From the NCBI RefSeq assembly GCF_012641075.1, contig NZ_JAAXLJ010000016.1, positions 1-59,525 on the forward strand: a stretch of DNA of 59,525 nucleotides, written 5' to 3'. The DNA comes from Secundilactobacillus angelensis (GTDB lineage Bacteria > Bacillota > Bacilli > Lactobacillales > Lactobacillaceae). The notes beneath the pieces were generated by a model. That model was not told where the DNA came from, ran no database searches, and worked only from the letters and a program-made list of their open reading frames with translations. Position numbers and translations under genes: made by a program. Every line of letters begins with the position of its first letter. Position 1 is the stretch's first letter. Positions 20,307-59,525 of this stretch are shown in pieces.

Positions 20307-20420
20307 GCGTTCAAGAGCCCAGAGTCCGGCCATGTAAGACAAATAAAGCAGGTTCCCAAAGTTCACGGGAACCTGCTTTATTTGTCTTACACTCTGGACT
20401 CTAACCGGGCTCTTTCACGC
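20307..20420. repeat. Long stem-loop repeat A (AAGTTC family)
   Basis: A perfect 24-bp stem (20334-20357 with 20367-20390) carries the loop AAAGTTCAC. Below it AGAGTCC (20321-20327) pairs with GGACTCT (20396-20402), AAGAGCCC (20313-20320) with GGGCTCTT (20407-20414), and GCGT (20307-20310) with ACGC (20417-20420). AACC forms a one-sided internal loop at 20403-20406. It sits between the convergent 3' ends of the ABC exporter and oppF. No U run follows the helix. Confidence 0.85.
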
Positions 20421-20426
20421 TCAATT

Positions 20427-21386
20427 CTATTTCACGCTCAAACCCATTTCCTTAGCCCTCTCCTGATACATCGGGATCTCGTCCTGACTGCATTGGACAA
20501 AGTGATGTGGGACAATTTCCACTAATTCACGTTTCTTTGAGCCATCTTCGTACTTTGGATCGTACTTAATCTGCGTCCGCGTGCGCTCATACTCTGGATC
20601 CGGCACGGGTACAGCTGACAGCAAGCTTCTGGTGTAGTCATGCAACGGGTGGTTGTAGACTTCATCCGAGGTGCCAACTTCCAGCATCCGGCCATAATGC
20701 AGCACGCCAATCCGGTCTGAGATGTACTTGACCATTGACAGATCATGGGCGATGAACAAGAAGGTTAATTTCCGTTCCCGCTGCAATTGCTTAAGCAAGT
20801 TGACCACCTGGGCTTGAATGGAAACATCCAAGGCCGAAATCGGTTCGTCAGCGATGATGAACTTGGGTTGCACAGCCAGCGCTCGCGCAATCCCGATCCG
20901 TTGCCGTTGCCCACCGGAAAATTCGTGGGGATAACGGCTGGCATGGTCACGGTTTAAACCAACAGTTGCCAGTAAATCAGCGACTTGTTTACTGCGATCT
21001 GCATCATCCTTAGCCAAATGATTAATGTCGATACCTTCAGCCACGATATCCTTGACTTTCATCCGAGGATTTAGGGAAGCATATGGATCTTGAAAAATCA
21101 TTTGCATATCACGGCGAAACTGCTGCATTTTTTGGTGATCTTTCAGGCCAATAATTTCTTGATTATTAAACTTGATTGAGCCGCTGGTTGGCGTATACAA
21201 ATGGATAATCGCCCGGCCAGTCGTCGTTTTACCTGAACCAGATTCACCAACTAAGCCAAAGGTTTCACCCTCATAAATATCGAAGGAAATATCATCAACA
21301 GCTTTAACTTCGTCGCGTTTACCAACGTTGAAATACTGTTTCAAATGCTTAACTTCAAGCACTTTTTTAGCGTTATCAAGCTCCAT
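20427..21386 (-). CDS. oppF: Oligopeptide ABC transporter ATPase OppF
   Basis: A 319-residue ATPase of peptide importers: Walker A GESGSGKTTTGRAIIHL near residue 47, signature SGGQRQRIGIARAL, Walker B KFIIADEPISALD, plus the C-terminal OppF/DppF extension after residue 240. With OppD it powers uptake of oligopeptides, a main amino-acid source for lactobacilli. Its ATG overlaps the oppD stop (TAATG), so it is translationally coupled. It is the last gene of oppABCDF. Confidence 0.94.
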   Translation of the reverse strand: MELDNAKKVLEVKHLKQYFNVGKRDEVKAVDDISFDIYEGETFGLVGESGSGKTTTGRAIIHLYTPTSGSIKFNNQEIIGLKDHQKMQQFRRDMQMIFQDPYASLNPRMKVKDIVAEGIDINHLAKDDADRSKQVADLLATVGLNRDHASRYPHEFSGGQRQRIGIARALAVQPKFIIADEPISALDVSIQAQVVNLLKQLQRERKLTFLFIAHDLSMVKYISDRIGVLHYGRMLEVGTSDEVYNHPLHDYTRSLLSAVPVPDPEYERTRTQIKYDPKYEDGSKKRELVEIVPHHFVQCSQDEIPMYQERAKEMGLSVK

Positions 21387-22483
21387 TATTGCTGTTCCTC
21401 CTCTTCTTCGATTTGATGATGCTGTGCCTTAGCCAATGCAGCTTTTTGCATTTCAGCAAACTTTTCTTGGCGCTTAATGATCTGGTCTGGCGGCGTTACC
21501 TTGGGTGCATCTGGATGCAATAGCCAAGTAGCCGCGTAATGCGTATCAGAAACCTTGAAAAATGGGGGTTCCTGTTCCGTATCAATCTTTAAGGCATACG
21601 GGTTCCGTGGGGCAAAGGCATCACCCTTTGGCGGATCCAGTAAGTCTGGCGGTGTCCCTGGGATAGAAGCAAGTTCTGCACTGTTTGTATCCAAGGTTGG
21701 CATCGAACTCAACAGGCCCCATGTGTAGGGGTGCTTTGGGTTGTAGAAAATCTCGTCAACGGTTCCGTACTCCACGATTTTACCGGCGTACATGACCGCT
21801 ACCCGATCAGCCATCCCAGCAACCACGCCTAAATCATGCGTGATAAAGATGATTGACGTTGAAATTTTATCCTGTAATTCACGCATTAAATTCAAAATTT
21901 GAGCTTGAATGGTCACATCCAAGGCAGTTGTTGGTTCATCAGCAATCAAGATTTCAGGATAGTTAATCAACGCAATCGCAATCACGATCCGTTGCCGCAT
22001 CCCACCTGAAAATTGGTGCGGATAATCGTTGATCCGATTCTCAGCATCCGTAATGCCGACCAACTTCATCATTTCCAAGGCTTGTGCCATGGCTTTTTCT
22101 TTTTTAACACCCTTGTGAATCATCAGCGGTTCGGCAATTTGTCTGCCGATTCGCATAGTAGGATCCAGCGAGGTCATTGGGTCTTGGAAAATCTGGGCGA
22201 TTTGAGCGCCGCGTAAATTCTCCAGTTCCCGTTCAGACATCTTCAAAACGTCTTTGTCGTGGAACTGAATGTTACCACCATCAACCACCGCGTTATTCGC
22301 TAGCATACCCATAATTGAGCGTGTCGTCACCGTTTTACCGGACCCTGATTCACCAACAATGGCTAAGGTTTCACCCTTCTTTAAATCAAAGCTGACGTCG
22401 CGAATGGCTTTGACTTTGCCAGCATAGGTGTTGAAATTGATTTTTAGGTGATTGACGGCCAAAATAGTTTCATTACTTTGCAT
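21386..22483 (-). CDS. oppD: Oligopeptide ABC transporter ATPase OppD
   Basis: A 365-residue ATPase with Walker A GESGSGKTVTTRSIMGML near residue 41, signature FSGGMRQRIVIAIALI and Walker B ILIADEPTTALD. The C-terminal region includes the OppD-type NPKHPYTWGLLSSMP stretch and ends in a charged EEEEEQQ tail. It pairs with OppF on the cytoplasmic side of OppBC. It overlaps oppF by one base and starts 13 bp after oppC. Confidence 0.94.
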   Translation of the reverse strand: MQSNETILAVNHLKINFNTYAGKVKAIRDVSFDLKKGETLAIVGESGSGKTVTTRSIMGMLANNAVVDGGNIQFHDKDVLKMSERELENLRGAQIAQIFQDPMTSLDPTMRIGRQIAEPLMIHKGVKKEKAMAQALEMMKLVGITDAENRINDYPHQFSGGMRQRIVIAIALINYPEILIADEPTTALDVTIQAQILNLMRELQDKISTSIIFITHDLGVVAGMADRVAVMYAGKIVEYGTVDEIFYNPKHPYTWGLLSSMPTLDTNSAELASIPGTPPDLLDPPKGDAFAPRNPYALKIDTEQEPPFFKVSDTHYAATWLLHPDAPKVTPPDQIIKRQEKFAEMQKAALAKAQHHQIEEEEEQQ

Positions 22484-22496
22484 GGTTTCAATTCAC

Positions 22497-23519
22497 CTAC
22501 TCTTTCGTTTGCGGATCAAAGGCATCCCGCAGGCCATCGGCAAAGATGTTAAAGGCAATCATGATTAATGATAAGACAATGGCTGGATACCACATTTGAT
22601 ATGGCAAAAATTGGAAGTTCTTTTGACCATCGTTCAACAACGTCCCAAGTGATGCTTGAGGGGCACTAATTCCGATACCAACGAAGGAAAGGAAGGCCTC
22701 GAAGAAGATTGCACTGGGAATGGTGAACATGGTTTGAATGATAATAATACTGGACAGATTAGGCAGTAGATGCTTAAAGGCAACCTTGATTGAACTTTCA
22801 CCCAAGGTTTTAGCCGCTAACACATACTCCTGTTCCTTTAACTCCAGGGTTTGCGCTCGGATTAGCCGGGCCATTGTGGTCCAGCTTGAAAACGCGATTG
22901 CCAAGGTAATGGACATCATACCGGGCTTGAGAATCAAAATCAGCAACACAACGACAACGAGTGTTGGAATTGACATGATGATTTCGATGACCCGTTGCAT
23001 GAAGTTATCGACCCAGCCGCCCTTCCAGCCGGAGAAGAGGCCAAAGGTGACACCGATCAATAGATCCACCGCCGTTGCCACGATCGCAACCGTTAAGGAA
23101 ATTCGGGTACCAAAGAGAATTCGAGATAACATATCACGACCCAGATAATCGGTTCCTAGCCAGTAGTGCACACCCGCACCGGCACCAGCTGCCTGGTAAG
23201 CATTAACTCGACTACCAGCCTGAACCAGTGTCCCGTTAATACCGTTAATGTTAATTCCAGGCCACTTCGGTGGTAGGTTAGCAAATTGCGGATTAACTGC
23301 ATTAGGATTATGTGGTGAAAAGAACGCTGATCCAAACGCTAATACGAAGAAGATGATGAGAATAATCATCGCCACAATCGCACTTTTATTCTTTTTTAAG
23401 CGGCGCCAAGCATCCTGCATAAAAGTCAGGTTTGGTGCTGCAATTTTTTCACTGTCGAGATGTTTTGACTTATCAAGAGGTTCAAAACTATCTGCAGGAA
23501 GTTTTACTTCGTCAGCCAT
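22497..23519 (-). CDS. oppC: Oligopeptide ABC transporter permease OppC
   Basis: A 340-residue permease with a cytosolic N-terminal tail of about 45 residues, the first helix at about 48 to 68, an extracytoplasmic domain, and five further helices. The EAA loop in the second half (EQEYVLAAKTLGESSIKVAFKH) is the contact for the ATPases. It forms the channel with OppB. RBS and spacing place it in one transcript with oppB 15 bp upstream. Confidence 0.94.
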   Translation of the reverse strand: MADEVKLPADSFEPLDKSKHLDSEKIAAPNLTFMQDAWRRLKKNKSAIVAMIILIIFFVLAFGSAFFSPHNPNAVNPQFANLPPKWPGININGINGTLVQAGSRVNAYQAAGAGAGVHYWLGTDYLGRDMLSRILFGTRISLTVAIVATAVDLLIGVTFGLFSGWKGGWVDNFMQRVIEIIMSIPTLVVVVLLILILKPGMMSITLAIAFSSWTTMARLIRAQTLELKEQEYVLAAKTLGESSIKVAFKHLLPNLSSIIIIQTMFTIPSAIFFEAFLSFVGIGISAPQASLGTLLNDGQKNFQFLPYQMWYPAIVLSLIMIAFNIFADGLRDAFDPQTKE

Positions 23520-23534
23520 TTAGTTACCTCCTAC

Positions 23535-24464
23535 TTAATTGCTCTTGCCAGAAATTCGGATTCGTGGATCGATAATTCCATAGACGATATCGGTGATCAA
23601 CAGCACCACCATCAGCATGACACTATACACGATGGTAACCGCCATGATTGTTGGGTAATCATTAGTCAAAATTGACTTAACGAATTGCTCTCCAATACCT
23701 GGAATAGAGAAGATGTTTTCAATAACCATCGACCCAGTCATGATATTAACCGCTAACGGTCCAATAATCGTGACCACTGGAATCAAACTGTTCCGCAAAG
23801 CATGGTGATAGATCACACCCCATTTACTGAGTCCTTTGGCTGTGGCTAACTCAATGTAGTCGGAATTTAACACGTCCACCATTTCCGTTCGTGTGAACCG
23901 CGCCGTATCCGCGAACGGCGACGCGGCCAGCGCAATCGTTGGCAAAACGGTGTAGGCGAATCCGCCCCAGTCGGCAATTGGCAGTAGATGTAATTTCAGT
24001 CCAACAAAGTACTGCAGCAAAACCGCCAGCACGAAACTTGGGATGGAGATACCCAAGATTGAAACAATCGTAGTGGTTGTATCAACCCAGGTGTTCTTCT
24101 TGATGGCACCTAAAGCACCAACTAAGATCCCAGGAATCACACCAAGGATCATGGCTTGAATCCCTAGCAAAAGGGAAGGCCCAATCCGGCTTGAAATCAA
24201 GTAGGAAACCGGTTGATCACTAAATTGGAAGGAAGTTCCAAAATTACCCTGGAACACACCGCCAACGTAAATCAAATACTGTTGCCAAACCGGTTTAGTT
24301 AACCCATACTGCTTCAAAATTAAGTGTTGCTGTGCCGGTGACAGCTTTTGCTGGTTTTGCAGCGGTGTTCCTGGCAGTAATTTCATTAGGAAAAACGTCA
24401 CGGTAATGACGATGAATAACGTTAACAGCAGATAAAAGATCCGCTTCAATAAATATTTCGCCAT
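23535..24464 (-). CDS. oppB: Oligopeptide ABC transporter permease OppB
   Basis: A 309-residue permease with six helices: an N-terminal helix at residues 9 to 29, an extracytoplasmic loop with LPGTPLQNQQKLSPAQ, and an EAA loop (DYIELATAKGLSKWGVIYHH). The C-terminus DPRIRISGK is typical of OppB/DppB. It lies 158 bp behind oppA, beyond a hairpin that may lower its expression relative to the binding protein. Confidence 0.94.
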   Translation of the reverse strand: MAKYLLKRIFYLLLTLFIVITVTFFLMKLLPGTPLQNQQKLSPAQQHLILKQYGLTKPVWQQYLIYVGGVFQGNFGTSFQFSDQPVSYLISSRIGPSLLLGIQAMILGVIPGILVGALGAIKKNTWVDTTTTIVSILGISIPSFVLAVLLQYFVGLKLHLLPIADWGGFAYTVLPTIALAASPFADTARFTRTEMVDVLNSDYIELATAKGLSKWGVIYHHALRNSLIPVVTIIGPLAVNIMTGSMVIENIFSIPGIGEQFVKSILTNDYPTIMAVTIVYSVMLMVVLLITDIVYGIIDPRIRISGKSN

Positions 24465-24524
24465 GAATATACCTCACATTCTAGTTACTTAGATTATATC
24501 ATTACACTTTTGACCTAATATGTA

Positions 24525-24567
24525 AAAGTAAGAGAGAGGAACAATCCCCGTTCCCATCTCTTACTTT
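24525..24567 (-). terminator. Hairpin between oppA and oppB, partial terminator
   Basis: AAAGTAAGAGA (24525-24535) pairs with TCTCTTACTTT (24557-24567), with an inner GGAAC/GTTCC stem. On the minus strand it is followed by TACATATT. Such a hairpin would keep oppA mRNA more abundant than that of the membrane subunits. Confidence 0.65.
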
Positions 24568-24622
24568 CTCAAAACACTAATGTTACTCATTCCCATTTAT
24601 TTACCAATCATAACCTAAGCGA

Positions 24623-26251
24623 TTACTTCGACAAATATGCGTGGCTAAAGTCCCATTGTGCACCGGTTGGGAAGTATTGCACACCATGAACCTTAGACTT
24701 CAACATTTGACTTTGAGTTTGTTGATAGAGTGGTACAACGCCTTGTTGTTGCATGATGGTCTTTTCAGCGTTAACCAGATCATTCCAACGAGCATTGGTA
24801 TTGTTAGCATCTTTACCTTCAGCGTTTTTAACGTCCGTATCATAAGAACTGTTCTTCCATTGACCACGGTTGTAGGCGTTATTCGAAGTAAACAGTGAAC
24901 TAAACGAAATTGCGTCTGGGAAGTCAGCAATCCAGCCACTAACAACCATGTCGAATTGGCCCTTTGTTGAACGGCTCAAACGAACGTTAAATGGTACGTT
25001 GCTGGTTGTCACTTTAAGCCCTGGCAGCTTGTTTAATTGACTTTGAAGGAACTCAGCGGTCTTCTTACCAGCTGGTGTATCATCTGAAAGCAAGTTAAGC
25101 GTCATGCTTGATTTACCAGACTGCTTAAGGGCTTTCTTCCAGTAGGTTTTAGCCTGAGCCAAGTTATACTCAGTTCCTGACTTAACGTAAGCAGCATCCG
25201 CAAAGTCCTTGTTACCCTTTTTAGCAAGATTCGTTGGTACTAATCCCTTGGGCGTTTGAGACCCATCCGCTAAGATATCTTTTGTTAACTGACCATTATT
25301 GATAGCCATGTTAACGGCTTTGCGCGCATTGAGATTATTCTTGAAGAATCCTTTGCGTTGGTTCATTTCGAGATAGAAAGTTGAGGCGGAGTTCCGAACG
25401 TGCATCTGCTTAGAATTCTTAAACTGCTTGTACTGGGTACCATCAGTAATCAATTCATCAACCTTGCCACTTTGATACTGGCTGAGCCAAGTGCCTTGAT
25501 CCTTGATGACTTGGAACTTAACCGCCTTTAGCTTAGTCGCTTTAGCGTCCCAGTAGTTCTTATTCTTGGCTAACGTCCAAGTATTATTGGTTCCGTTCCA
25601 GCCGGTCATCGTAAATGGCCCGTTATAAACGGCCTGCTTAGAGTTAGCTGCAAACTTAGAGCCGTACTTTTCAACCACTTTTTGATTTTGTGGGAAAAAT
25701 GCGGGTGCGCCCACAATATACTTGAAGTAACTTTGTGGCCGTGACAACGTGACAACCACTTTATAGTCGCCATCCGCTTTGATACCTAGCTTGGAAGGCG
25801 CCATCTTACCCTTGTTGACCGCGCTAAAGTTCTTCACGTGGTCGTACAAGTAAGCATACTGCGAAGCCGTCTTTGGCTTAACGGTCCGTTGCCAGCCATA
25901 AACGAAATCTTTGGCAGTCACGGGGTCACCGTTACTCCACTTCGAATGACGCAGATTAAAGGTCCAGGTCTTGCCATCCTTTGAAACCTTATAGTTCTTG
26001 GCAACCCCAGGACGAAGCTTTGATCCCTGTCCAATTCGAAGTAACCCTTCATCCACGTTGTTTAACGCAGTCGCACTGACAATATCAGTGGACTTAGATG
26101 GATCCATGGTCGGTAAGTTGGACGTCTCCACCCAATTAAGTGTCTGATCGGTCGCCAAACTCTTGTTGCTACTCTTAGAACCACAGGCAGCTAACAGTAA
26201 TACTGAAACCCCTGAAACTGCCCCTAAAGCTAAAGCCTTGTTGAACTTCAT
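24623..26251 (-). CDS. oppA: Oligopeptide-binding lipoprotein OppA
   Basis: A 542-residue solute-binding lipoprotein. The signal peptide MKFNKALALG...VSVLLLAACGSKSS has a lipobox with the lipidated Cys near residue 23. The cluster 5 binding-protein fold follows (FVYGWQRTVKPKTASQYAYL, YNGPFTMTGW). Length is normal for OppA. AAGGGGAG sits about 10 bp before the ATG at 26251; a longer frame from 26305 lacks the signal at its start and is rejected. It is the first gene of the operon. Confidence 0.95.
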   Translation of the reverse strand: MKFNKALALGAVSGVSVLLLAACGSKSSNKSLATDQTLNWVETSNLPTMDPSKSTDIVSATALNNVDEGLLRIGQGSKLRPGVAKNYKVSKDGKTWTFNLRHSKWSNGDPVTAKDFVYGWQRTVKPKTASQYAYLYDHVKNFSAVNKGKMAPSKLGIKADGDYKVVVTLSRPQSYFKYIVGAPAFFPQNQKVVEKYGSKFAANSKQAVYNGPFTMTGWNGTNNTWTLAKNKNYWDAKATKLKAVKFQVIKDQGTWLSQYQSGKVDELITDGTQYKQFKNSKQMHVRNSASTFYLEMNQRKGFFKNNLNARKAVNMAINNGQLTKDILADGSQTPKGLVPTNLAKKGNKDFADAAYVKSGTEYNLAQAKTYWKKALKQSGKSSMTLNLLSDDTPAGKKTAEFLQSQLNKLPGLKVTTSNVPFNVRLSRSTKGQFDMVVSGWIADFPDAISFSSLFTSNNAYNRGQWKNSSYDTDVKNAEGKDANNTNARWNDLVNAEKTIMQQQGVVPLYQQTQSQMLKSKVHGVQYFPTGAQWDFSHAYLSK

Positions 26252-26613
26252 ATGCAACACACTCCCCTTATGTGAATCGGATAAAAATACTAATATATGT
26301 AACAATAAACTGTTTTTATTGTATATTAGGAAATCATTAAATTCAACTGTGTTTTATCATTTTTAAAGCATAAAGCGTTTACTTTAGCGAAATAATAGGC
26401 ATCTTTTTTTGAATAATTTTTACGGTATCGAATAAATACCCTCTGTTTCACCCTCCTTAGACGAAAATTGGTCAATCTTTATTCGTTCAGACTAACAATC
26501 GAATTATTAAAGAATTATAAGTTTGCTGGCACTCGTAAACTCTTGGCTCCAGAAACTAAATACCAGTGTGCCCTATGTTATACTGAGTCTAAACAGTTAA
26601 GGATGGTGACAAC
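26252..26613. promoter_or_regulatory. Divergent oppA-hflX intergenic region with oppA promoter
   Basis: On the minus strand TTGAAT (26346-26341) and TACAAT (26323-26318) lie 17 bp apart, giving an oppA leader of about 60 nt that is very AT-rich. On the plus strand only a TATACT (26579-26584) ahead of hflX is evident, with a poor -35. No CodY-like box could be named with certainty. Confidence 0.55.
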
Positions 26614-27891: not shown

Positions 27892-27903
27892 TCTTTTAAC
27901 GTC

Positions 27904-27947
27904 AAGAACCGCCACCCTGATGAAACATTGGGGTGACGGTTCTTTGT
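27904..27947 (+). terminator. hflX intrinsic terminator
   Basis: AAGAACCG (27904-27911) pairs with CGGTTCTT (27937-27944), with an inner CACCC/GGGTG stem, then TTGTTAT. Since this already ends hflX, repeat B behind it is not needed as terminator. Confidence 0.8.
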
Positions 27948-27965
27948 TATCACTGCTCTAAACGT

Positions 27966-28076
27966 GCTCAAACAAGCAAAGAGTTGCATCTAAGGGCACG
28001 CAACAAAAATTCCCAAAGTTCAGGGAATTTCCATTGCGTGCCCTTAGACTCCACTCTTTAACCGCTTGTTTTCACA
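27966..28076. repeat. Long stem-loop repeat B (AAGTTC family)
   Basis: AAACAAGC (27970-27977) pairs with GCTTGTTT (28064-28071); aa opposes TTAACC (28058-28063); AGAGT (27980-27984) pairs with ACTCT (28053-28057). A 14-bp stem (27990-28003 with 28034-28047) and AAATTCCC/GGGAATTT follow, closing on AAAGTTCA. It is followed directly by repeat C. Confidence 0.85.
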
Positions 28077-28091
28077 CTCTCTCACTTAAAC

Positions 28092-28200
28092 GTGCTCACC
28101 AAGTCAGAGGTCTGCACAGAACAGCACCCCACCACAAATCCAAGTTCGGGATTTATGGTGGGGTGCTGTTCTGCTTCGGTCTCTAAACGCCTTGGTTCAC
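28092..28200. repeat. Long stem-loop repeat C (AAGTTC family)
   Basis: GTG/CAC, ACCAAG (28098-28103)/CTTGGT (28191-28196), AGAG (28106-28109)/CTCT (28181-28184), an 18-bp perfect stem (28117-28134 with 28156-28173) and AATCC/GGATT close on AAGTTCG. The 5' flank TAAACGTGCTCA is identical to that of repeat B. Together B and C fill the space between convergent hflX and the glutamine-type transporter operon. Confidence 0.85.
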
Positions 28201-28210
28201 ACTCTGGGTA

Positions 28211-28864
28211 TTAACTCATCCTGCGATCCAACGACCGAGACAATAGCGATAATGCGTAACATACAATGAAGTACATAATCGCGATCATTAAGAACATCGG
28301 TAGAATGTACGTTGAGTTTTGACCATAAACGATTTGAGCGTTATGCATCAAATCTGGTAGAACGATAATCGTTGCTAGTGATGTATCCTTGATCAGGGAA
28401 ATAAACTGACTGACCAACGCCGGAATCATCTTTTTCATCGCTTGGGGCAAGACCACGTGGTACATGGCTTGTCCGTAACTCAGCCCGTTAGCTCTGGCAC
28501 CTTCCATTTGACCAGGGTCAACAGCAGCAATACCAGACCGCACGATTTCTGCAATCATCGTTGATTCAAAAACGGTCATGGCTAATATTGTTGCCCATAC
28601 ACTACTTGGACGGAAGCCTAAGTTTGGCAGGCCAAAGTAAGTGAAGAAGATGATTAGCAGCAACGGTAAGTTACGAATAATGTCGATGAACAAGCCGACA
28701 ATCGGTGACACAACTTTAATGTTCACGTAACGGATAATACCTAAAATTGAGCCCAAAACGTAGCTCCCAACAATGGAAACGACGGATACAGCCACCGTAA
28801 TCCAAAGGCCTTGAAGCAAGTAATGGATATTGATCCATGAATATGCATTGATAAAGTCTTTCAT
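28211..28864 (-). CDS. Polar amino-acid ABC transporter permease (second)
   Basis: A 217-residue HisM/GlnP-type permease with five helices and the EAA loop GQMEGARANGLSYGQAMYHV. It forms a heterodimer with the permease encoded 12 bp upstream. Together with the binding protein and ATPase of this operon it imports glutamine, glutamate or a similar polar amino acid. It is the last gene of the operon, ending just before repeat C. Confidence 0.92.
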   Translation of the reverse strand: MKDFINAYSWINIHYLLQGLWITVAVSVVSIVGSYVLGSILGIIRYVNIKVVSPIVGLFIDIIRNLPLLLIIFFTYFGLPNLGFRPSSVWATILAMTVFESTMIAEIVRSGIAAVDPGQMEGARANGLSYGQAMYHVVLPQAMKKMIPALVSQFISLIKDTSLATIIVLPDLMHNAQIVYGQNSTYILPMFLMIAIMYFIVCYALSLLSRSLDRRMS

Positions 28865-28876
28865 GACTGCACCTCC

Positions 28877-30351: not shown

Positions 30352-30363
30352 ACCTCCTGACTT

Positions 30364-31592: not shown

Positions 31593-31605
31593 CTTAAAAG
31601 TAACT

Positions 31606-36299: not shown

Positions 36300-36310
36300 C
36301 TGGTCAAAAT

Positions 36311-36342
36311 AAAAACACCGAATTCATTTTCGGTGTTTTTTT
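36311..36342 (+). terminator. Terminator shared by the permease and antiporter genes
   Basis: AACACCGAA (36314-36322) pairs with TTCGGTGTT (36329-36337). A and T runs on the two sides allow it to work in both directions between convergent genes. Confidence 0.85.
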
Positions 36343-36353
36343 ATCTAAACATT

Positions 36354-43276: not shown

Positions 43277-43520
43277 TTAATCATTTACCTCCTTTAATTG
43301 TGTGCAGAGGTAGGCTTTTAAAGCATATCTAAGGGGCTTTCAGCAAACTACCAAACTGGTAACCTGTCAAAAGTCCCTTAGCTGTAACTTTCAGCTTGCC
43401 GGAACACCATCATTTAAACTGCCTTTAAAGGCTAAATTTAAGTTCATTTTCATTTTTTTACAACACTTCACCCTATCACGAAACCTTTTCAATAGCAAGA
43501 AATGAAGCCATAAATCCGCA
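43277..43520 (-). promoter_or_regulatory. Leader region of the ABC-F gene
   Basis: A TATAAT lies on the minus strand at 43525-43520, so the leader may be about 235 nt. CTAAGGG (43329-43335) and CCCTTAG (43375-43381) form the base of a long stem. Nearer the gene TACCTC (43286-43291) and GAGGTA (43307-43312) pair, which would bury the GGAGGT of the ABC-F mRNA. A frame for MKMNLNLAFKGSLNDGVPAS is a possible leader peptide, but its RBS is weak. Confidence 0.4.
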
Positions 43521-49519: not shown

Positions 49520-49612
49520 GCCGAGAAAATCAACATTGTAAAACTACTATCTCTCATAATTGGTAAAATCGTACTGACGGAATCTGATGACGAGATTTCT
49601 AAAGCACCTGAC

Positions 49613-50479: not shown

Positions 50480-50491
50480 GGTTCAGCCCCC

Positions 50492-51551: not shown

Positions 51552-51638
51552 TCTTAAACATCTCTCCTCTCGTATCTCTTAATAGTCGTATCATACCGAA
51601 ACCAGGGAGTGGCATCAAGTAGGATGTTTCTTCATCTA

Positions 51639-52277: not shown

Positions 52278-52347
52278 TCCTTCAAATTATTCTTGTCTTT
52301 AAAGTTAGTTTAACATGGCGTCGGCTTTACCAAGAATTAATAATTCA

Positions 52348-53325
52348 TTAATTTAAACTGACAGTCTGTAATTGATCAGGAATGCCATAGAATTCAGGCT
52401 TGGTTCGTTCCAGCATTGCTGGCGTTAACTGCAGCTTCACGAGTCCTAATCGATTATAAGATTCAAAATAATAGGATAACGATTCGGTTACTGTTGAAGC
52501 ACGGTAAACTGAATAATTTTGCTGATACGCGGTACTTTTTGGCACACTCACACCATTTAAAAGGTGCCACATGCTGACAATTCCTGAATTTTCATCAGCA
52601 GGTTGATCGGTTCGTTCTTTGTAGTACGCTGCTCGAATGAAGCGTGAACCTGGCGTATACGAACCAGCAGGAATCTTCTTTCCAGAGAAGCTACCCGTCG
52701 TCACCCGCGGTGTATTTAACGGCACTGATCCAGCTTCAAATTCCGGCGTAAAGGTCATATAATCTTCCAACTGTTTAAGCTGCCGTTTAAAGTCATAGGC
52801 GTTGGTGAGAATACCAAGCGGGTTTTCGTATATCTTAAGTGGCTTTTCTGAAGTTTCAATTGCCACGATTCGACCCGACGCATCTGAAGCCACAAAGTGC
52901 AGCTCTGGGTAGCCATAGGGCTTGAACGCCCCTTCACCACTCATCAATTGAATCTCATTCATATGTTCCTCAATTTCGACAATTGACTTGAAGTGCCCTA
53001 ACAAGTACAACGGCAATTCAAATGGGGCAAGTGAATGTTTATTGAGATCCGGCTGGTGATCAAAAATTGCCCCATTGGCAAAGGTTAATTTTTGAACACT
53101 CAATCCAAATTCGTTAATCCCATCAGAGATATCGATTTCCTTATCGTGGGCACCGCCACTGCCAATAATAGCGTAAGAGTTTTGATACGCCTGATTATCA
53201 TACACCGACCGCCAATGGTATTGACGAGGAACAAAAACTGGTCTAGCACCTAACGCATGCCAATCCATCGTTCGACCCAAAACGTGAGTCCCATCCAGTG
53301 AGATTTGATAGATACTCGTACACAT
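52348..53325 (-). CDS. Choloylglycine hydrolase family (bile salt hydrolase / penicillin V acylase)
   Basis: A 325-residue Ntn-hydrolase. Cys2 becomes the N-terminal nucleophile once Met is removed; Arg18 and Asp21 are in GRTMDWH, an Asn is in NPLGILTNAYDF near residue 175 and an Arg lies near 228. These match the catalytic set of bile salt hydrolases. Penicillin V acylase and N-acyl-homoserine lactone acylase share it, so substrate is open. It starts 4 bp after a small gene of unknown function, probably as an operon. Confidence 0.88.
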   Translation of the reverse strand: MCTSIYQISLDGTHVLGRTMDWHALGARPVFVPRQYHWRSVYDNQAYQNSYAIIGSGGAHDKEIDISDGINEFGLSVQKLTFANGAIFDHQPDLNKHSLAPFELPLYLLGHFKSIVEIEEHMNEIQLMSGEGAFKPYGYPELHFVASDASGRIVAIETSEKPLKIYENPLGILTNAYDFKRQLKQLEDYMTFTPEFEAGSVPLNTPRVTTGSFSGKKIPAGSYTPGSRFIRAAYYKERTDQPADENSGIVSMWHLLNGVSVPKSTAYQQNYSVYRASTVTESLSYYFESYNRLGLVKLQLTPAMLERTKPEFYGIPDQLQTVSLN

Positions 53326-53329
53326 GTTG

Positions 53330-53575
53330 TCACCGCTCCCTTGTTTGGCTTAGATGCTGTAACGTATTTTCAAACTGCTGATCAATTCGTTTCTGGCTTG
53401 CTTCTGATATCTGGGTTGCTGGTTGCCCTTTTCTAAGAATGGGTTCCGCCACCTTCAAGTAAGTAAATAAAACTTGGCTGACATCTAAATGATAAACGGC
53501 AGCTAATCGTTTCGCAATTGAAAACCGATTATTAGTATTCAATCCAGCATATGGACTTTGATACTGCTTTGACAT
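53330..53575 (-). CDS. Small protein of unknown function upstream of the choloylglycine hydrolase
   Basis: An 81-residue, cytosolic, helix-rich protein: MSKQYQSPYAGLNTNNRFSI, then AKRLAAVYHLDVSQVLFTYL and a basic and polar C-terminus. There are no Cys residues and no membrane segment. The middle part could be a small helical DNA- or protein-binding unit, but I do not recognise it. A GAAGAG box precedes the ATG at 53575. Its stop lies 4 bp from the next ATG, so it is surely co-translated with the hydrolase. Confidence 0.6.
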   Translation of the reverse strand: MSKQYQSPYAGLNTNNRFSIAKRLAAVYHLDVSQVLFTYLKVAEPILRKGQPATQISEASQKRIDQQFENTLQHLSQTRER

Positions 53576-53690
53576 GGTCTCTTCCACCCTTCATTTCAAG
53601 AAAGTTCATTATAAGCAATTTTTTACCTGAATAATAGTAATTTGAATTGAAATCAATTAATCGCGGACAACCGAGGTAAAAGCTTTATTT

Positions 53691-53734
53691 TATTTCATTT
53701 GAAAATTGAAATACAAACTCTTATCGGCTATGTT
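53691..53734 (+). promoter_or_regulatory. Promoter and inverted repeat upstream of the MMPL gene
   Basis: TTGAAA (53706-53711) and TATGTT (53729-53734) are 17 bp apart. TATTTCA (53691-53697) and TGAAATA (53707-53713) form an inverted repeat over the -35, a likely repressor site. No regulator gene of the TetR type is adjacent. Confidence 0.4.
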
Positions 53735-53793
53735 AATATAGTAGTTATATATATGCGCCTTGAAGGGCGACATTTTAAGGGAGATATTATTCA

Positions 53794-56508
53794 ATGAAAG
53801 AGCGGATACGTCAGTTACACAGTCATCGAATCTTCTCATTGCTGTTTTGGCTCATCGCAATTTTTGCTGCCATCGTGATGATGCCTAACACCTCTGACAT
53901 GATTCAATCTAAGGGACAGCCTCAGTTAGCTAATGATAGCCAGCCGATGGTCGCCCGGAGTATGCAAAGCACATGGGGTAGGAACATTTCCGGTACGTCT
54001 CAGGTTACAGTAGTTTTCAGTAATCCTAACGGAAAGTTGACCACCACCCAACAGTCTAATATTGATAAAACCGTTCAACGTTTGACTGAAAAACAAAAAA
54101 CTTATGGCATCCAGTCTATTCAAACTATGACCACGAATCCGACTGCCAAAAGCCAATTTTATTCCAAAGACGGTTCTACCGAAACCATCCAATTGGCACT
54201 CGCTCAAAATCAAGGCGATTCAAGAGTACTTGCGAAGCAGCTCCGAAGCCAAATTCGAACAGCCGGTTTATCAACTTACTTAACTAGTCCGGAATTAGTG
54301 AACGATGCCGCTAATGAAAACATCAGTCACGTGACAACTTTTGCCGCTATTCTTGGCTTTATTTTAAGCCTGTTAATCATTGGTGTGATCTTCAAATCAC
54401 TGATTGCACCTCTAATCTCCACATTATCCATGCTGATGATGTACGCAGTTTCCCTAAGCTTAGTTAACAACTTAGCTAGTCATACCAGTTTTCCGTACTC
54501 AGAATACCTGCCATTATTAACATTGTTATTGACATTAATTCTTGGAACACTGGGCTTTTACTACCTATTTAACGCATTTAAAGAAAACGCAGCAGCCGGC
54601 CAAGACCCGGCAGAAGCGACAACTCATAGTGTGCATGCCATTCGCAACTTTCTACTGATTCTTGGTTGCACGTTAACGATTCTCTTTGCCAGTTTTTACG
54701 CCTTTAGTTTTTCAACGATTCGGGCAATGTCTAGCCTAGCAATCGTTACGATTGTCACCATTATCGGACTGTACACCATTGCACCGATCTTCATGCAGTT
54801 ACTTGGCGAACGATTCTTCTGGCCAGCCGCTGATCTACCCACCCGACCACACCGTTTCTGGAACTGGATGGCAAGCTTCGGCCTCTGGCAACCATTCGTT
54901 GCAATCATCGCAGTCTTGTACGTTGTCGGTCCCTTTGCCATTTTATACCGGGACAATTTGAATTTCTCGGCGGCTAAAACGGTCGCACCTAACAACGAAG
55001 CAATTTCTGGTATGCGCGTGCTTAACGCCCACTTTGGTGAAGGAAAAGCTACCCCAGTTACCATTTATGTCCGTAGTAAGGATCGGGTGGATAACGAAAA
55101 AGCGCTGCTTCAACTCGATAATTTAACTACCAAATTAAAGTCAATGCCCGGCGTTGCTGGGGTCACATCATTGACTCAGCCTAACGGTCAGCCAATGAAC
55201 CAGTACTACGTTAATACTCAGCTCAACCAGATGAACACCTCACTTCGGGGTGCCACTGATCAACTTTCAACATTACAATCTGATCTCAAGTCTAACCGCT
55301 CGGATCTCAGCCAGGTTAAACTCAGCGAATCTGCTGACAAGCTGGATAGTCTAGTTTCCAAAACCACCACTCTTGCTGACGATACAAGCACCGTTCGTTC
55401 ACAAGTTTCACAGGTTGCGGGCAGAGCTAGCGTTTCTCAAAGCTCATCAGCTTCCAAACGAGTTAGAAATTATCAACGGTTACTCAACCTAGTCAGCAAC
55501 CAGCTTCAGACCGTCGCTAGCAACATGCGGGTCCTCAACGATGAGGCTACTACAGCCGGCAATGATGGCCAAGCTGTTCAATCCAGCGTTTCAGATTATG
55601 CTTCCCAGGTTTCATCCGTTCAAAGCAGTCTAAAGAAAACAACAACTAGTCTAAACGGCTTGATTAAGTCGTATAACAGCATCTACAGTTATCTTTCTGC
55701 TTTACAAGCATCCGATGCCGCTAAGACTTATTACATTACTCCTGAGCAACTCACCAGTATGCAATTCCAGCAATCCTTGGCAAGCAACACGAGTCAGGAT
55801 TACAAAACGACTCAGTTACAAATTTACCTGAAGAACTCTGCATCAAGCCATAACAACGCTGCAACAATCCAACAACTACAGTCTGAAGTCAAAACTCAGT
55901 TGCAAGGGACTGCTCTTAGCAACGCTAAAATTGCCTACACTGGTCAACCAGTTGTTCAAAATACGGTTGAACACGCCATTAAAACAAATGCTGGCTGGTT
56001 ACTCTTAACCATTGGGATCATTACTTTCCTAATTATTGCGATTCTAAGTGGTTCAGTTCTCCAGCCAATTTACTGGTTGACCAGCTTGGCCTTAGCCGTT
56101 ATGGGTGGCGTCCAGTTAGCTGAGCTCACGAGTCACTTTATGTCTGGTGATCCAACTTTCAACTGGCAAGTGCCGTTTATCGCATTTGTGCCATTGCTCA
56201 TTATCAGTATGAGCCTACTGATTCAACTGGCAATTAGCTATCGCTTTAAAGAGGTTAGTTTGCTGGACTGGCTCCAGCCCGGTGTCAGTTCTCTAGGTCA
56301 AACACTTCGTTACCAGTTGTTTACGATGGTTATTATCTGTCTGGTCTTGTTTAGCGCTAATTTTGCGCCACTCACGCAGGCTGGATTGGTAATCTTGTTT
56401 GCAACTATCATCTTCGACATTATCTTGCCGATTATTGTCACATCCGTTGGCAAATTAACCGTGACGTTACCTACTATGCGTCCTCACTTAAAGCGCCACG
56501 CAAAATAA
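53794..56508 (+). CDS. MMPL/RND-family membrane transporter
   Basis: A 904-residue protein: a helix near residue 15, an exported domain (about 40 to 175), five or six helices with the MMPL core (about 180 to 370), a second exported domain (400 to 725) and a second helix bundle to the end. The exported insert 470 to 640 is Ser/Gln/Thr-rich coiled coil (LRGATDQLSTLQSDLKSNRS). Such YdgH/MmpL-like pumps carry lipids or surface components. It is monocistronic with its own terminator. Confidence 0.87.
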   Translation: MKERIRQLHSHRIFSLLFWLIAIFAAIVMMPNTSDMIQSKGQPQLANDSQPMVARSMQSTWGRNISGTSQVTVVFSNPNGKLTTTQQSNIDKTVQRLTEKQKTYGIQSIQTMTTNPTAKSQFYSKDGSTETIQLALAQNQGDSRVLAKQLRSQIRTAGLSTYLTSPELVNDAANENISHVTTFAAILGFILSLLIIGVIFKSLIAPLISTLSMLMMYAVSLSLVNNLASHTSFPYSEYLPLLTLLLTLILGTLGFYYLFNAFKENAAAGQDPAEATTHSVHAIRNFLLILGCTLTILFASFYAFSFSTIRAMSSLAIVTIVTIIGLYTIAPIFMQLLGERFFWPAADLPTRPHRFWNWMASFGLWQPFVAIIAVLYVVGPFAILYRDNLNFSAAKTVAPNNEAISGMRVLNAHFGEGKATPVTIYVRSKDRVDNEKALLQLDNLTTKLKSMPGVAGVTSLTQPNGQPMNQYYVNTQLNQMNTSLRGATDQLSTLQSDLKSNRSDLSQVKLSESADKLDSLVSKTTTLADDTSTVRSQVSQVAGRASVSQSSSASKRVRNYQRLLNLVSNQLQTVASNMRVLNDEATTAGNDGQAVQSSVSDYASQVSSVQSSLKKTTTSLNGLIKSYNSIYSYLSALQASDAAKTYYITPEQLTSMQFQQSLASNTSQDYKTTQLQIYLKNSASSHNNAATIQQLQSEVKTQLQGTALSNAKIAYTGQPVVQNTVEHAIKTNAGWLLLTIGIITFLIIAILSGSVLQPIYWLTSLALAVMGGVQLAELTSHFMSGDPTFNWQVPFIAFVPLLIISMSLLIQLAISYRFKEVSLLDWLQPGVSSLGQTLRYQLFTMVIICLVLFSANFAPLTQAGLVILFATIIFDIILPIIVTSVGKLTVTLPTMRPHLKRHAK

Positions 56509-56526
56509 ATAATTTAGTTAGTTATT

Positions 56527-56574
56527 AAAAGAACGACTAGAGCAGTCATCAAACTGTTCTAGTCGTTCTTTTTT
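56527..56574. terminator. Bidirectional terminator
   Basis: AAAAGAACGACTAGA (from 56527) pairs with TCTAGTCGTTCTTTT (to about 56572), with an inner CAGT/ACTG stem, between the convergent MMPL and MerR genes. Confidence 0.85.
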
Positions 56575-56579
56575 GCGAC

Positions 56580-57023
56580 TTAATTCGAATTGTCGTTCGC
56601 CGGCCGAACCTCATAGCTGGCTTCTCCATTCTCGTACAGACCGTAAAGAACCTGCGTTTTCGCTTTATCAAAGTAGCCCAAGTTCAAATACATCTTTCCT
56701 TCGACAACCTCTACACCATTAAACGCAACTTTAAAAAACTTGCGGGCTAGTAAAATTTCTTTTTCAATACTCCGCATTTTCTCCACGGCTGCCGGAAGTC
56801 GATACCCCTCATCCTGCAGTTTTTTAATGATACTAACTTGAAGAAACGTATGAAAGTCATAGACTCGCGCCTTGTTTTGATCATCACGTGTATTGGCTGA
56901 AATGTACTCACGCTGCTCCCAGTATCTAAGCTGACGCGAGGACACCCCAGTCATGCGACTCAGTTCACCAATGCGAAACACAAAGGTATCGGTGTTGACT
57001 AAATTAGGGATTTGATAATTCAT
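56580..57023 (-). CDS. MerR-family regulator
   Basis: A 147-residue MerR protein with FRIGELSRMTGVSSRQLRYW at about residues 15 to 34 (helix-turn-helix), a wing around EYISANTRDDQNKARVYDF and a dimerisation helix SIEKEILLARKFF. There are no Cys residues, so metal sensing is unlikely. The C-terminal 45 residues form a short beta-rich domain. The ATG at 57023 follows GGCGG; an upstream ATG at 57104 lacks an RBS. It is divergent from the NlpC/P60 gene and might control it. Confidence 0.82.
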   Translation of the reverse strand: MNYQIPNLVNTDTFVFRIGELSRMTGVSSRQLRYWEQREYISANTRDDQNKARVYDFHTFLQVSIIKKLQDEGYRLPAAVEKMRSIEKEILLARKFFKVAFNGVEVVEGKMYLNLGYFDKAKTQVLYGLYENGEASYEVRPANDNSN

Positions 57024-57271
57024 CTCATAACCGCCTCTCAGATTTTGCACCCTTATTATTCCACATTCTTGACTAATGAGCAAAGTCAGTCGCTTGTACA
57101 ACATGTCTTATAGGAAATGTTATTTTACAGGATTGTGAAATTATTACGTAAATTACAGTCTGAAACTGATTGTTTAACGTCATTGACACTGCTTTGTTAC
57201 ATGATTGAAATAAATAACACGTACACTAATTGTTGTACATAAAAACGGATAAGTTAGGGGTTTTAAGTTCA

Positions 57272-57760
57272 ATGAAGAAATTAATCGTAAAAAGTATTAT
57301 TGCGGTAGCAGCATTCTTTAGTTTCGCAGTTGCTGGTGCACAGGCTACTACAGCACAGGCTGCAAGCACGAACGCAACTTACAGCACCGTTTACAACACA
57401 GCTAAGCAAAATTTAGGTAAGCCATACGTTTGGGGCGCAACTGGTCCTTCCGCATTTGATTGCTCAGGCTTTACCAGTTACGTTTACAAAAAGGCTGCCA
57501 AGATTTCTATTCCACGGACAGCACAAGCACAATATAACGCTTATAAGCACGTTAGCGGTTCTAACGTTGAAAAGGGCGACTTAGTCTTCTTCGGTTACGG
57601 TACCGGCAGTATCAGCCACGTTGGCTTATACGTTGGTAACGGCAAGATGATTGATGCCCAAAACCGCGGCGTTGTGAAAGAAAAGGTCCACGCACCATGG
57701 TGGCACGTTGTTGGTTACGCACACGTTACCGATTTTAGCACCACTGCTTCACTAGACTAA
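57272..57760 (+). CDS. Secreted NlpC/P60 endopeptidase
   Basis: A 162-residue exported enzyme. The signal peptide covers residues 1 to about 32 (AAFFSFAVAGAQATTAQAAS), then a single NlpC/P60 domain with catalytic Cys in FDCSGF, His in SHVGLYVGNG and the third residue near PWWHVVGY. It cleaves D-Glu-diaminoacid bonds in peptidoglycan. There is no SH3b or LysM binding domain, so it is a minimal form. TGTTACATGATTGAAAT upstream could be a loose WalR-type site. Confidence 0.9.
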   Translation: MKKLIVKSIIAVAAFFSFAVAGAQATTAQAASTNATYSTVYNTAKQNLGKPYVWGATGPSAFDCSGFTSYVYKKAAKISIPRTAQAQYNAYKHVSGSNVEKGDLVFFGYGTGSISHVGLYVGNGKMIDAQNRGVVKEKVHAPWWHVVGYAHVTDFSTTASLD

Positions 57761-57774
57761 TACACACATATAAC

Positions 57775-57811
57775 AAAGCCGTGATCGTCAAGTTGATGAT
57801 CACGGCTTTTT
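57775..57811. terminator. Bidirectional terminator
   Basis: AAAGCCGTGATC (57775-57786) pairs with GATCACGGCTTT (57798-57809) and is followed by Ts, between the NlpC/P60 and GNAT genes. Confidence 0.85.
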
Positions 57812-57829
57812 AGATTCTTTAGAAACAAT

Positions 57830-58252
57830 TTAAAGGTTCTTCACCATTTTAACGTGCTTGATCCCCACTTCTTCAAACGGTTCGCCAGTTTGCTCAAATC
57901 CTAAACGTTCGTACAATCCGATGGCTGTTGCTTGAGCGTTTAGCTCCAAGTGGCTCTTCGGGGGCATTTCGGCAATTACTCGCTGCAATAAGCCTATGGC
58001 ATACCCATGATGCCGAAAAGCGTTCAGGGTGGCTACGCGTTGAATATGTACTGTCTGTCCTAGATGACGAATTCTTGCAGTAACAACCGGTTGATGCTCA
58101 ACGTAACCAACATAATGCGTCACCTGATCATCTAAACCATCAAATTCTAACTTAGCTGAAATGCCCTGTTCCTTCACAAAAACCGCCTGGCGAATGTTGG
58201 CCGCATCGTGGTAAACCTGACTCTTCGTACCTGTTGCTGACTCAATTTTCAT
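57830..58252 (-). CDS. GNAT-family N-acetyltransferase
   Basis: A 140-residue acetyltransferase, ElaA/YjcF-like: IRQAVFVKEQGISAKLEFDG near residue 20, the acetyl-CoA binding region IQRVATLNAFRHHGYAIGLL near 70, and ALGLYERLGF-like IGLYERLGFEQTGEPF near 108. The substrate is unknown. It is monocistronic and convergent with the NlpC/P60 gene. Confidence 0.87.
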   Translation of the reverse strand: MKIESATGTKSQVYHDAANIRQAVFVKEQGISAKLEFDGLDDQVTHYVGYVEHQPVVTARIRHLGQTVHIQRVATLNAFRHHGYAIGLLQRVIAEMPPKSHLELNAQATAIGLYERLGFEQTGEPFEEVGIKHVKMVKNL

Positions 58253-58367
58253 TACTCAACCCCCTCATCCACTTATTATACCCTATTAGTGCTGGGCGAA
58301 TTCCACGGGATTTCCGGTTCTATATGCTATACTGGGGGCAATAATAATACGAAAGCAGGCGACAATC

Positions 58368-59297
58368 GTGCAAACTCATCACATTTCGCTCTTAACAAAA
58401 AACGCTAAACAAAATATTCGGTTTTACACCCATGTACTTGGTTTACGGCTAGTCAAAAATTCCGTCAACCAAGAAAATATTCATATTCGTCATTTATTCT
58501 ACGGTGATTATTTAGGTACCCCGGGTTCAGTCATTACCTTCTTTGTCTTACCTCTACTGGGACATCGAACAGATGGCAATCACTTTATTAACGGGATCCG
58601 GTTAGCAATTCCAACTGGTAGTCAAGCATTCTGGCAGGAACGCTTAGCCAGTACGGGCATTACAGTAACTAAGACGAGCGACGGTCTTTCATTTGACGAC
58701 CCCGATCAGATTCCCATCACCATGGTAGAAACTGACAACCAGCTCACTGAATGGCAAGTTGTTCCCAATAATGGCATCGACGCCAAATACCAAATCAGCC
58801 GCTTCTTAGGCACTGAACTACACGTACCAGACGTCAGTGCGTCACAGAACTTTTTTGAAAAATTACTCAATCTAACGGTCACTGATAATACGGTCGAACT
58901 TGACGGTGCTGAACAAATTAAGCTAGTGCAAACTACCGATTTCAGTCAAATCACTCGGTTCGGTCGAGGCTCAATCGACCACGTTGCTTTAAGGGTAGCT
59001 GACGAAGCTGAACTGTTACGCTACTATCAACTTGCTGAAGAACAGGGCTGGGACATTGAAATGTACCGCGATCGCGGCTGGTTTAAGAGTCTTTACATTC
59101 GTGAACCCGGCGATAATCGAATTGAACTTGCTACCCCTACCCCAGGATTCAGCCTCGATGAGTCAATTTTAACAATGGGTAACAGTCTCGGTTTACCACC
59201 AAAGTTTGAATCATTGCGGTCAACTATTATGGATTACTACGCTAAGCAAGGCATCGATTTTAGCGATGATGGCGATCTTAGTGCACAGGGTGATTAG
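58368..59297 (+). CDS. VOC-family ring-cleaving dioxygenase-like protein (MhqO type)
   Basis: A 309-residue tandem VOC protein. The first module starts HHISLLTKNAKQNIRFYTHV and the second RFLGTELHVPDVSASQNFFE, with metal ligands including His in GSIDHVALRV and Glu in NRIELATPTPGF. Relatives (MhqA/MhqO) respond to quinone and electrophile stress. The start is GTG at 58368, with an AAGCAGG box upstream; no ATG fits. It is followed by repeats D and E. Confidence 0.85.
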   Translation: MQTHHISLLTKNAKQNIRFYTHVLGLRLVKNSVNQENIHIRHLFYGDYLGTPGSVITFFVLPLLGHRTDGNHFINGIRLAIPTGSQAFWQERLASTGITVTKTSDGLSFDDPDQIPITMVETDNQLTEWQVVPNNGIDAKYQISRFLGTELHVPDVSASQNFFEKLLNLTVTDNTVELDGAEQIKLVQTTDFSQITRFGRGSIDHVALRVADEAELLRYYQLAEEQGWDIEMYRDRGWFKSLYIREPGDNRIELATPTPGFSLDESILTMGNSLGLPPKFESLRSTIMDYYAKQGIDFSDDGDLSAQGD

Positions 59298-59319
59298 GTG
59301 ATTTGATTTAGCTTAATCG

Positions 59320-59430
59320 GGCTTCTCCAAGCAAAGAGCCGCACATAAGGGCGTCTCCGTCTGAGTTCCTAAGTTCATGGAATTCCGTCGGGGACGCCCT
59401 TGTGCTTCGGTCTTTAACCGCTTGGTTGCG
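59320..59430. repeat. Long stem-loop repeat D (AAGTTC family)
   Basis: CCAAGC (59327-59332) pairs with GCTTGG (59420-59425); aa opposes TTAACC (59414-59419); AGA/TCT follows. CACATAAGGGCGTC pairs with GACGCCCTTGTG (59393-59404). The apex is closed by TTCC/GGAA over TAAGTTCAT. Confidence 0.8.
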
Positions 59431-59446
59431 CACCTTGGTTTAATCA

Positions 59447-59525
59447 GGCTTCTCCAAGCAAAGACCTGCTCACAACACAAGCCCACCAAAATTCCCAAGT
59501 TCGGGGAATTCCGGTGGCCTTATCT
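59447..59525. repeat. Long stem-loop repeat E, cut by the window end
   Basis: The 5' flank TTAATCAGGCTTCTCCAAGC is nearly the same as in repeat D (one difference). CCACC/GGTGG and AATTCCC/GGGAATT close on AAGTTCG (59497-59503). The 3' half lies beyond the window. Confidence 0.7.

Follow-up and report, generated by a model that had tools for sequence, protein, structure and literature searches.

What are the long hairpin repeats that recur behind genes in a 59,525-nucleotide contig of Secundilactobacillus angelensis (NZ_JAAXLJ010000016.1, positions 1 to 59,525, hereafter the window)? Five of them, A to E, were picked out in an initial annotation as long stem-loops sharing one architecture, and were suggested to be either palindromes moved by a transposase or RNA elements at gene 3' ends. 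Covariance-model searches recover all five at the places described, with the shared architecture, E being truncated by the end of the contig. The family to which they belong is real, large and apparently undescribed, its members being structured repeats linked to stop codons. The explanation that we prefer, and to which we give a probability of roughly one half, is that the repeats are mobile elements of the 3' untranslated region (3'-UTR) which spread as units and would act as the 3' end of the host gene.

Two covariance models were used: R1, built from 14 copies of the window's own genome (2.6 Mb, here G000), and R2, built from 54 copies and on the strand opposite to R1. Read in the sense of the upstream gene, an element is ~120-135 nt long and runs from the region of the stop codon through a 5' edge (for example GAGYGUG or AGGUGYG and, in numerous copies of other Bacilli families, AAAAGCG) into stem P0, a short two-sided loop, stem P1 (6-8 bp), a bulge of 4 nt in the 5' arm (in most cases GGUU or GUUU, with AG next) and stem P2 (~7 bp). 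Past P2 an asymmetric internal loop of the type GGAGU/AUGCA or AGAAU/AUGGCC leads into P3, which mostly starts with UAA facing UUA and is hypervariable in the rest, and to an apex that is often GAACUU; after the 3' arms comes a 3' edge, CACGUUUCGGCUAUAUAA or similar. The initial annotation, using the other strand, had described the two loops as a conserved TAACC and a conserved AAGTTC, and both descriptions hold in part. What was called the internal loop is a one-sided 4-nt bulge with varying letters (AACC, AAAC, TAGC, ACCC and AGGC on that strand), of which only the last C, along with the following G, is invariant in 14 of 14 aligned own copies. The AAGTTC apex is common but not universal, AAGCCC, AAGACC, AAAACC and AAACCC also occurring. 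The elements of the window, and the parts of A as an example, are these:

20300-20422, minus strand: element A (covariance-model span), starting 4 nt past the TAG of gene 20427-21386
20313-20320 paired with 20407-20414 (plus-strand coordinates): P1 of element A
20321-20327 paired with 20396-20402 (plus-strand coordinates): P2 of element A
20403-20406 (plus-strand coordinates): 4-nt bulge of element A
20333-20357 paired with 20367-20391, apex 20358-20366 (plus-strand coordinates): P3 of element A
27957-28079, minus strand: element B, second copy of the tandem B-C behind gene 28211-28864
28085-28204, minus strand: element C, first copy behind gene 28211-28864, 6 nt from its stop codon
59312-59435, minus strand: element D, second copy of the tandem D-E
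59439-59525, minus strand: element E, incomplete because the contig ends within it

The stems differ in sequence and yet keep pairing, as had been claimed, and the claim that this reflects selection on structure is well supported. Among the 14 own-genome copies, 29 of the 34 consensus pairs carry two-sided changes; among the 54 copies, double changes are present at 42 of 43 pairs and 92.2% of the 2297 cells pair. The covariation score of 0.817 compares with 0.209 for shuffles and 0.14-0.17 for slid controls, and none of 500 shuffles scored as high. Folded as single strands, elements A, B, C and D have z-scores of -15.1, -10.6, -8.4 and -5.8, with no shuffle among 200 for each being as stable.

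A structure formed by one strand alone should keep G-U pairs there and not in its complement. Alignment of 69 copies to R1, which models the strand opposite to the gene sense, gives 135 G-U pairs on the gene-sense strand and 20 on the opposite one, distributed over the stems as 23:4 in P0, 8:2 in P1, 10:5 in P2 and 94:9 in P3. The sense-to-opposite count is 100:8 in G261, a genome of another Lactobacillaceae genus (41 rows, one of them an antisense shadow), and 30:9 in G518, from a Bacilli family of another order (12 rows). With the position at stop codons (see below), this shows the working strand to be the reverse complement of the one on which the repeats were originally described, and it points to a structure carried by the mRNA-sense strand, either as RNA or as single-stranded DNA (ssDNA), the data fitting both.

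Position was assessed in 71 copies of at least 50 bits from 802 kb of the own genome (six contigs), grouped into 53 arrays, with two contig-end fragments above 50 bits excluded and open reading frames (ORFs) counted from 100 codons upwards. Such an ORF ends on the sense side of 36 of the 53 arrays, and in 35 of these 36 the stop codon falls between -33 and +28 nt relative to where the element starts, the lone exception being at -221. Eleven of the 36 are exactly at -2, where the first base of the element completes TAG or TAA. On the opposite side of the arrays, the 21 ORF ends found are scattered from -241 to -13. The pattern recurs outside this sample. Of 26 further own copies on other contigs, 17 have an ORF of this kind, 16 of them with the stop at -29 to +5; in G261 the stop lies at -27 to 0 in 22 of 26 cases (34 arrays; 44 of 49 matches kept, antisense shadows and one incomplete match being excluded), and in G518 at -7 to -3 in five of five (10 arrays). 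Convergent genes may each own one copy, oppositely oriented, as at 21525 (minus) and 21808 (plus) of contig C74 and at 198835 (minus) and 199109 (plus) of contig C1.

Rfam release 15 has no family matching at gathering score over the window's elements, nor over the elements at 17 loci from other Bacilli families, where a single match, to Bacillaceae-1, falls just outside an element. Below the gathering score, microRNA hairpin models and one Staphylococcus aureus small RNA model match over A-C. Scarcity of copies, lack of covariation and membership of a known Rfam family were each checked for, and it is many copies (see below), strong covariation and no Rfam family that were found. Covariation, the strand of the wobble pairs, the fixed position at stop codons and the lack of an Rfam match together lend good support to the view of the repeats as 3'-end RNA elements.

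The family is large. In the own genome R1 yields 129 matches (E ≤ 10), a figure that includes five or more antisense shadows. It matches every one of the 15 genomes of the genus and, at E ≤ 0.001, 158 of the 301 from Lactobacillaceae, spread over 23 of the 40 genera; since R1 rewards any long hairpin, antisense shadows reaching 51.5 bits, genomes with low scores only may be false, and the other genera considered safe are those with scores near or above 100 bits (g3, g12, g14 and g21). With R2 and E ≤ 1e-6, five other Lactobacillaceae genomes yield at least 150, 126, 134, 42 and 20 matches, and five genomes from other Bacilli families 27, 15, 82, 11 and 17. The copy numbers given here are to be read as approximate or as minimum figures. 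R2 matches 36 of 398 Bacilli genomes, the own genome counted, at E ≤ 1e-4, and in a phylum-wide sample three of 398 at E ≤ 1e-5, namely the own genome and two others, all Bacilli. In G548, from another order of Bacilli, seven copies stand in tandem (C2:59029-59894) with a period of ~123 nt. Mobile replicons were searched with blastn. Single Secundilactobacillus copies have no matching copy among plasmids or phages, and one copy from another Bacilli family and one from G261 have no plasmid match. A copy from G260 matches 49 plasmid records of Lacticaseibacillus and Lactiplantibacillus, of which only one covers at least 80% of the query, many spanning only the 25% of it where lacT is annotated.

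Element copies are gained and lost between species. Site A is filled in seven of the eight comparable genomes (G000, G001, G006, G008, G009, G012 and G013) and empty in the eighth, G003, which has an ordinary terminator instead; the remaining genomes of the genus are non-comparable there. By eye, the ORF at site A ends in MGLEVL* in G003 and in MGLSV or similar in the element-bearing genomes, which is consistent with insertion into the last codons. Behind hflX there are two copies in the own genome and in S. pentosiphilus, one in S. yichangensis and none in S. silagei and S. hailunensis. Of four other sites compared, those at 36.3 and 56.5 kb are clear. At 36.3 kb the stop codon is followed by a terminator in the own genome and in four relatives, where G009 has an element of a second type (type 2, see below) directly after the stop codon and no recognisable terminator (both by eye). 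The 56.5 kb site is element-free in four genomes and holds a decayed copy in G006, with a hairpin that now runs into a stretch of T (by eye); G013 offered no anchor for this comparison. At 31.5 kb the G009 copy lies inside a longer stretch missing from the other genomes, and at 18.4 kb three genomes are non-comparable. Filled and empty sites were compared across genomes that are ~80% identical; boundaries are not clean, and no target duplication was recognised. The more than 100 matches in the own genome, along with presence and absence at orthologous sites, support the suggestion that the repeats have spread as a unit.

Type-2 copies (AACTCAGATTCCGGCC on the strand of the initial annotation) are part of a longer unit of ~230-250 nt with inverted ends, GGCTGTGACA and TGTCACA(A)GCC, in the best-kept of 14 copies, type 2 being the only type examined in this respect. 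When the complete own genome was scanned for the distal end, with up to three mismatches allowed, no autonomous partner of type 2 emerged: all 15 matches adjoin type-2 hairpins, so that no autonomous form is seen, the search being limited to the type-2 end, with a partner located elsewhere or having other ends outside its reach. The transposase domain Y1_Tnp (PF01797), sought in 60 genomes, has no match in the own genome and is absent from eight of the 15 genomes of the genus. Seven of these eight (the own genome, G002-G005, G009 and G013) are rich in repeats, with at least 53 model matches each.

Does the element stand in for a terminator? We counted U-tract terminators within a given distance past the element, considering only genes with at least that much room (Fisher test). 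In the own genome a terminator lies within 100 nt of 1 of 21 element-bearing genes and of 109 of 283 others (p = 0.0015); the figures are 1 of 27 against 122 of 388 at 60 nt (p = 0.0009) and 0 of 10 against 88 of 202 at 150 nt (p = 0.006). In G261, at 100 nt, they are 1 of 16 against 47 of 151 (p = 0.042). Terminator replacement is accordingly supported in the own genome and weak in G261, and is not seen in G518 (see below). As for the elements themselves, the observation that no U runs follow them holds at the element end; inside the element, though, 23 of 71 copies have a U-tract after a hairpin on the gene-sense strand, compared with 9 of 71 on the opposite strand.

We therefore set out the preferred reading, that of a mobile 3'-UTR element forming the host gene's 3' end, as a series of steps. 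The element would be transcribed with the upstream gene, in the sense of its mRNA, and the transcript would fold into a single long hairpin of P0, P1, bulge, P2, internal loop, P3 and apex. This hairpin may fix the 3' end of the mRNA by terminating transcription, given that about a third of copies hold a U-tract hairpin, by blocking decay from the 3' end, or by both. In the own genome it would take over from the gene's own intrinsic terminator, and copies would spread as units through a putative machinery. What is established is where the elements lie and on which strand, their structure with its covariation, how many copies there are, and that species have gained and lost them; transcription of the element and its function are what we infer. 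A bolder version, which we put forward only tentatively and consider rather doubtful as it stands, would make the family a Bacilli-wide set of mobile 'portable gene endings'. Integration at gene 3' ends would be oriented by the gene, with stop codons at or near the 5' edge and the host terminator replaced, and the structure of P1, bulge, P2 and internal loop, as RNA or ssDNA, would be read by a dedicated putative mobilising factor, perhaps via an RNA intermediate.

Several observations weigh against a 3'-UTR element that acts as the gene's end. In 17 of the 53 arrays, no ORF that reaches 100 codons ends on the sense side. Some copies are flanked by genes that run in one direction, a setting in which complete termination might do harm; a copy on plasmid pWX3 of Lacticaseibacillus paracasei (L274) is found between same-strand genes for a phosphotransferase system (PTS) IID component and a DUF956 protein. 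An internal U-tract hairpin is lacking in 48 of the 71 copies. The scarcity of terminators in G261 is non-significant at 60 nt (p = 0.32) and at 150 nt (p = 0.72), and in G518 the direction is opposite, with a terminator after the element in three of three bearing genes and in 62 of 157 others. Without the equal-room condition the own-genome contrast is 2 of 35 to 170 of 388 (p = 2.5e-6), which overstates the effect: many elements take up the whole gap, so that a terminator would have no space. As ssDNA also tolerates G-T pairs, the wobble bias reveals the strand and not its RNA nature. P1 and P2, furthermore, contain very few wobbles (of 943 cells, 18 sense and 7 antisense). Slow compensation in RNA would usually leave more, and the scarcity would suggest that whole copies are replaced rather than repaired stepwise; in keeping with this, species differ at site A by several bases at once in P1 and P2.

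Among the alternatives the most serious is that of a mobile element acting as ssDNA, with no RNA function. A structure-specific nuclease or recombinase would read the hairpin of one strand, and insertions would either be made near terminators or be purged elsewhere. Free variation in the stems next to a preserved bulge and internal loops is as in structure-specific recognition, and the near-perfect Watson-Crick pairing of P1 and P2, the tandem arrays, including the seven in a row in G548, and the longer conserved type-2 unit, whose inverted ends recall miniature inverted-repeat transposable elements (MITEs), all favour it. So do the terminators persisting behind the element in G518, as expected for integration between stop codon and terminator. 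Random, tolerated insertions should, however, scatter between genes instead of clustering within ~30 nt of stop codons, the scarcity of terminators behind own-genome copies suggests a useful function, and no gene for a Y1 transposase, such as a REP-associated tyrosine transposase (RAYT; REP, repetitive extragenic palindrome), was found in the own genome. We judge this explanation possible but on the unlikely side. That very transposase is the core of a proposal made when the repeats were first described, that they are REPs or bacterial interspersed mosaic elements (BIMEs) mobilised by a RAYT. Although they are indeed palindromes interspersed at gene 3' ends and often in tandem, the seven repeat-rich genomes without PF01797, the unconserved stem sequences and a length of ~120-135 nt are unlike REPs, and we give the proposal almost no credence.

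The remaining two accounts concern function rather than movement. Since ribosomes are reported to stall at REPs no more than 15 nt from a stop codon (PMC12306157), and most assigned stops here are within 15 nt of the element start, a hairpin up to ~15 nt from the stop could slow the terminating ribosome and so lower or tune expression, as for some E. coli REPs. We think this improbable: the second and third copies of tandem arrays are far from the stop, and the conserved inner loops and the scarcity of terminators are left unaccounted for. Less probable still is that the elements are ordinary intrinsic terminators, long by chance. The excess of internal U-tract hairpins on the sense strand and the few separate terminators behind own-genome elements would follow from it, but most copies have no such hairpin, the arms of P0, P1, bulge and P2 past the U-tract would be superfluous and yet covary strongly, and one architecture is maintained across families of Bacilli.

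Two copies are of interest for how elements change. The site A copy of G008 (L142) is compound by eye, its outer arms seeming to enclose the 5' arm and apex of another element, which suggests recombination between tandem copies. At L014 (G000:C74:39620-40060) three tandem copies agree, by eye, in their P1 and P2 letters, but P3 of the third is quite unlike that of the others, as though one inner stem had been swapped for another within a conserved frame. When P3 arms were compared with the rest of the 802 kb, 7 of 66 had exact matches of 15 nt and 2 of 66 of 18 nt, against 0 of 66 at both lengths for shuffled arms; at 14 nt the numbers were 11 and 4. This small excess possibly represents unmasked element remnants, and the idea of the arms as guides to other targets was set aside.

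The surroundings of the elements in the window, and the empty site mentioned above, are as follows:

20427-21386, minus strand: gene upstream of A, an ABC (ATP-binding cassette) transporter ATPase with an oligopeptide-transporter C-terminal domain (Pfam)
28211-28864, minus strand: gene upstream of C and B, an ABC transporter permease (BPD_transp_1, Pfam)
27904-27947, plus strand: terminator of hflX, an ordinary hairpin and T-rich tail distinct from B (read from the sequence)
36300-36353, no strand assigned: empty site with an ordinary terminator; relative G009 has an element at the orthologous site

That hflX has a terminator of its own before B, separate from the element, had been noticed from the outset and is correct; the relatives of this hflX at 80-97% protein identity are Secundilactobacillus. 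The missing end of E is held by the end of contig C85, where 62 bases are identical to the last 62 of the window. On C85 a TAG closing 258 open codons lies at -5 relative to element E, so that E and then D follow that gene. Contig ends of this assembly fall within or near element copies at position 59525 of the window and on C85, C2, C49, C70, C74 and C76; the repeats thus seem to break the assembly, and the window adjoins C85 via E. Two further features of the window may be recorded. A 28-bit model match at 43300-43414 (minus strand), possibly a decayed copy or a chance hairpin, was excluded from the copy count, and the pemK RNA motif of Rfam (RF02913) matches at 8956-9010 (plus strand) with 48.7 bits, overlapping the start of an ORF at 8996-9379.

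With about 100 or more matches per genome in several lactobacilli, the family would account for many gene 3' ends, and would break assemblies and confuse annotation in these genomes. Stems that change almost freely while pairing is kept, together with the apparent standing in for terminators in the own genome, make it a test case for how a repeat becomes host regulation, and it allows a test for a structure-recognising mobility system in Bacilli.

How does the family compare with known systems? RUP, BOX and NEMIS are short non-autonomous MITEs that form long hairpins and are sometimes found in UTRs. The best-kept type-2 copies resemble them in having inverted ends, but no autonomous partner was found in the own genome and no target duplication was recognised, and the freely varying sequences of P1 and P2 do not make a fixed transposase site. 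The attC site of integrons is a folded, strand-specific site right after a stop codon, with a variable stem and bulged bases. Our elements share all of these traits; unlike attC they show, by eye, no GTTRRRY/RYYYAAC core pair and are dispersed behind chromosomal genes, no search for an integron integrase having been made.

REPs are conserved in sequence and linked to RAYTs. Like the REPs and BIMEs of enterobacteria and pseudomonads, the present elements are palindromes interspersed at gene 3' ends and clustered; unlike them, they are ~120-135 nt long, conserved in structure with many stem sequences, oriented by the gene, and present in a genome, the window's own, that has no Y1 transposase. 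REPs measure 20-40 bp (PMC3733652), and PMC12306157 places some REPs and BIMEs within 15 nt of stop codons and relates proposed effects on mRNA decay and translation. Within the Firmicutes, the bcr repeats (bcr1-bcr18) of the Bacillus cereus group are interspersed, some being MITE-like, and 40-51% of their copies in two strains are transcribed within UTRs, operons or other units (PMC3446304). They are described there for the B. cereus group and are compared here by description only, a relation being possible. The Efa-1 repeats of Enterococcus and Bhal-1 of B. halodurans (PMC2267715) are known to us by description. The accessible portions of the open-licence PubMed Central literature, including PMC2267715, PMC3446304, PMC12306157, PMC2864571 and PMC8632094, do not describe the family. 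REP and bcr are the nearest described kinds. The family would work like 3'-end repeats of the REP kind; it lacks, however, the short sequence-conserved palindrome and, in the own genome, the Y1 transposase that define REP, and its anatomy, its orientation rule and its free stem variation set it apart.

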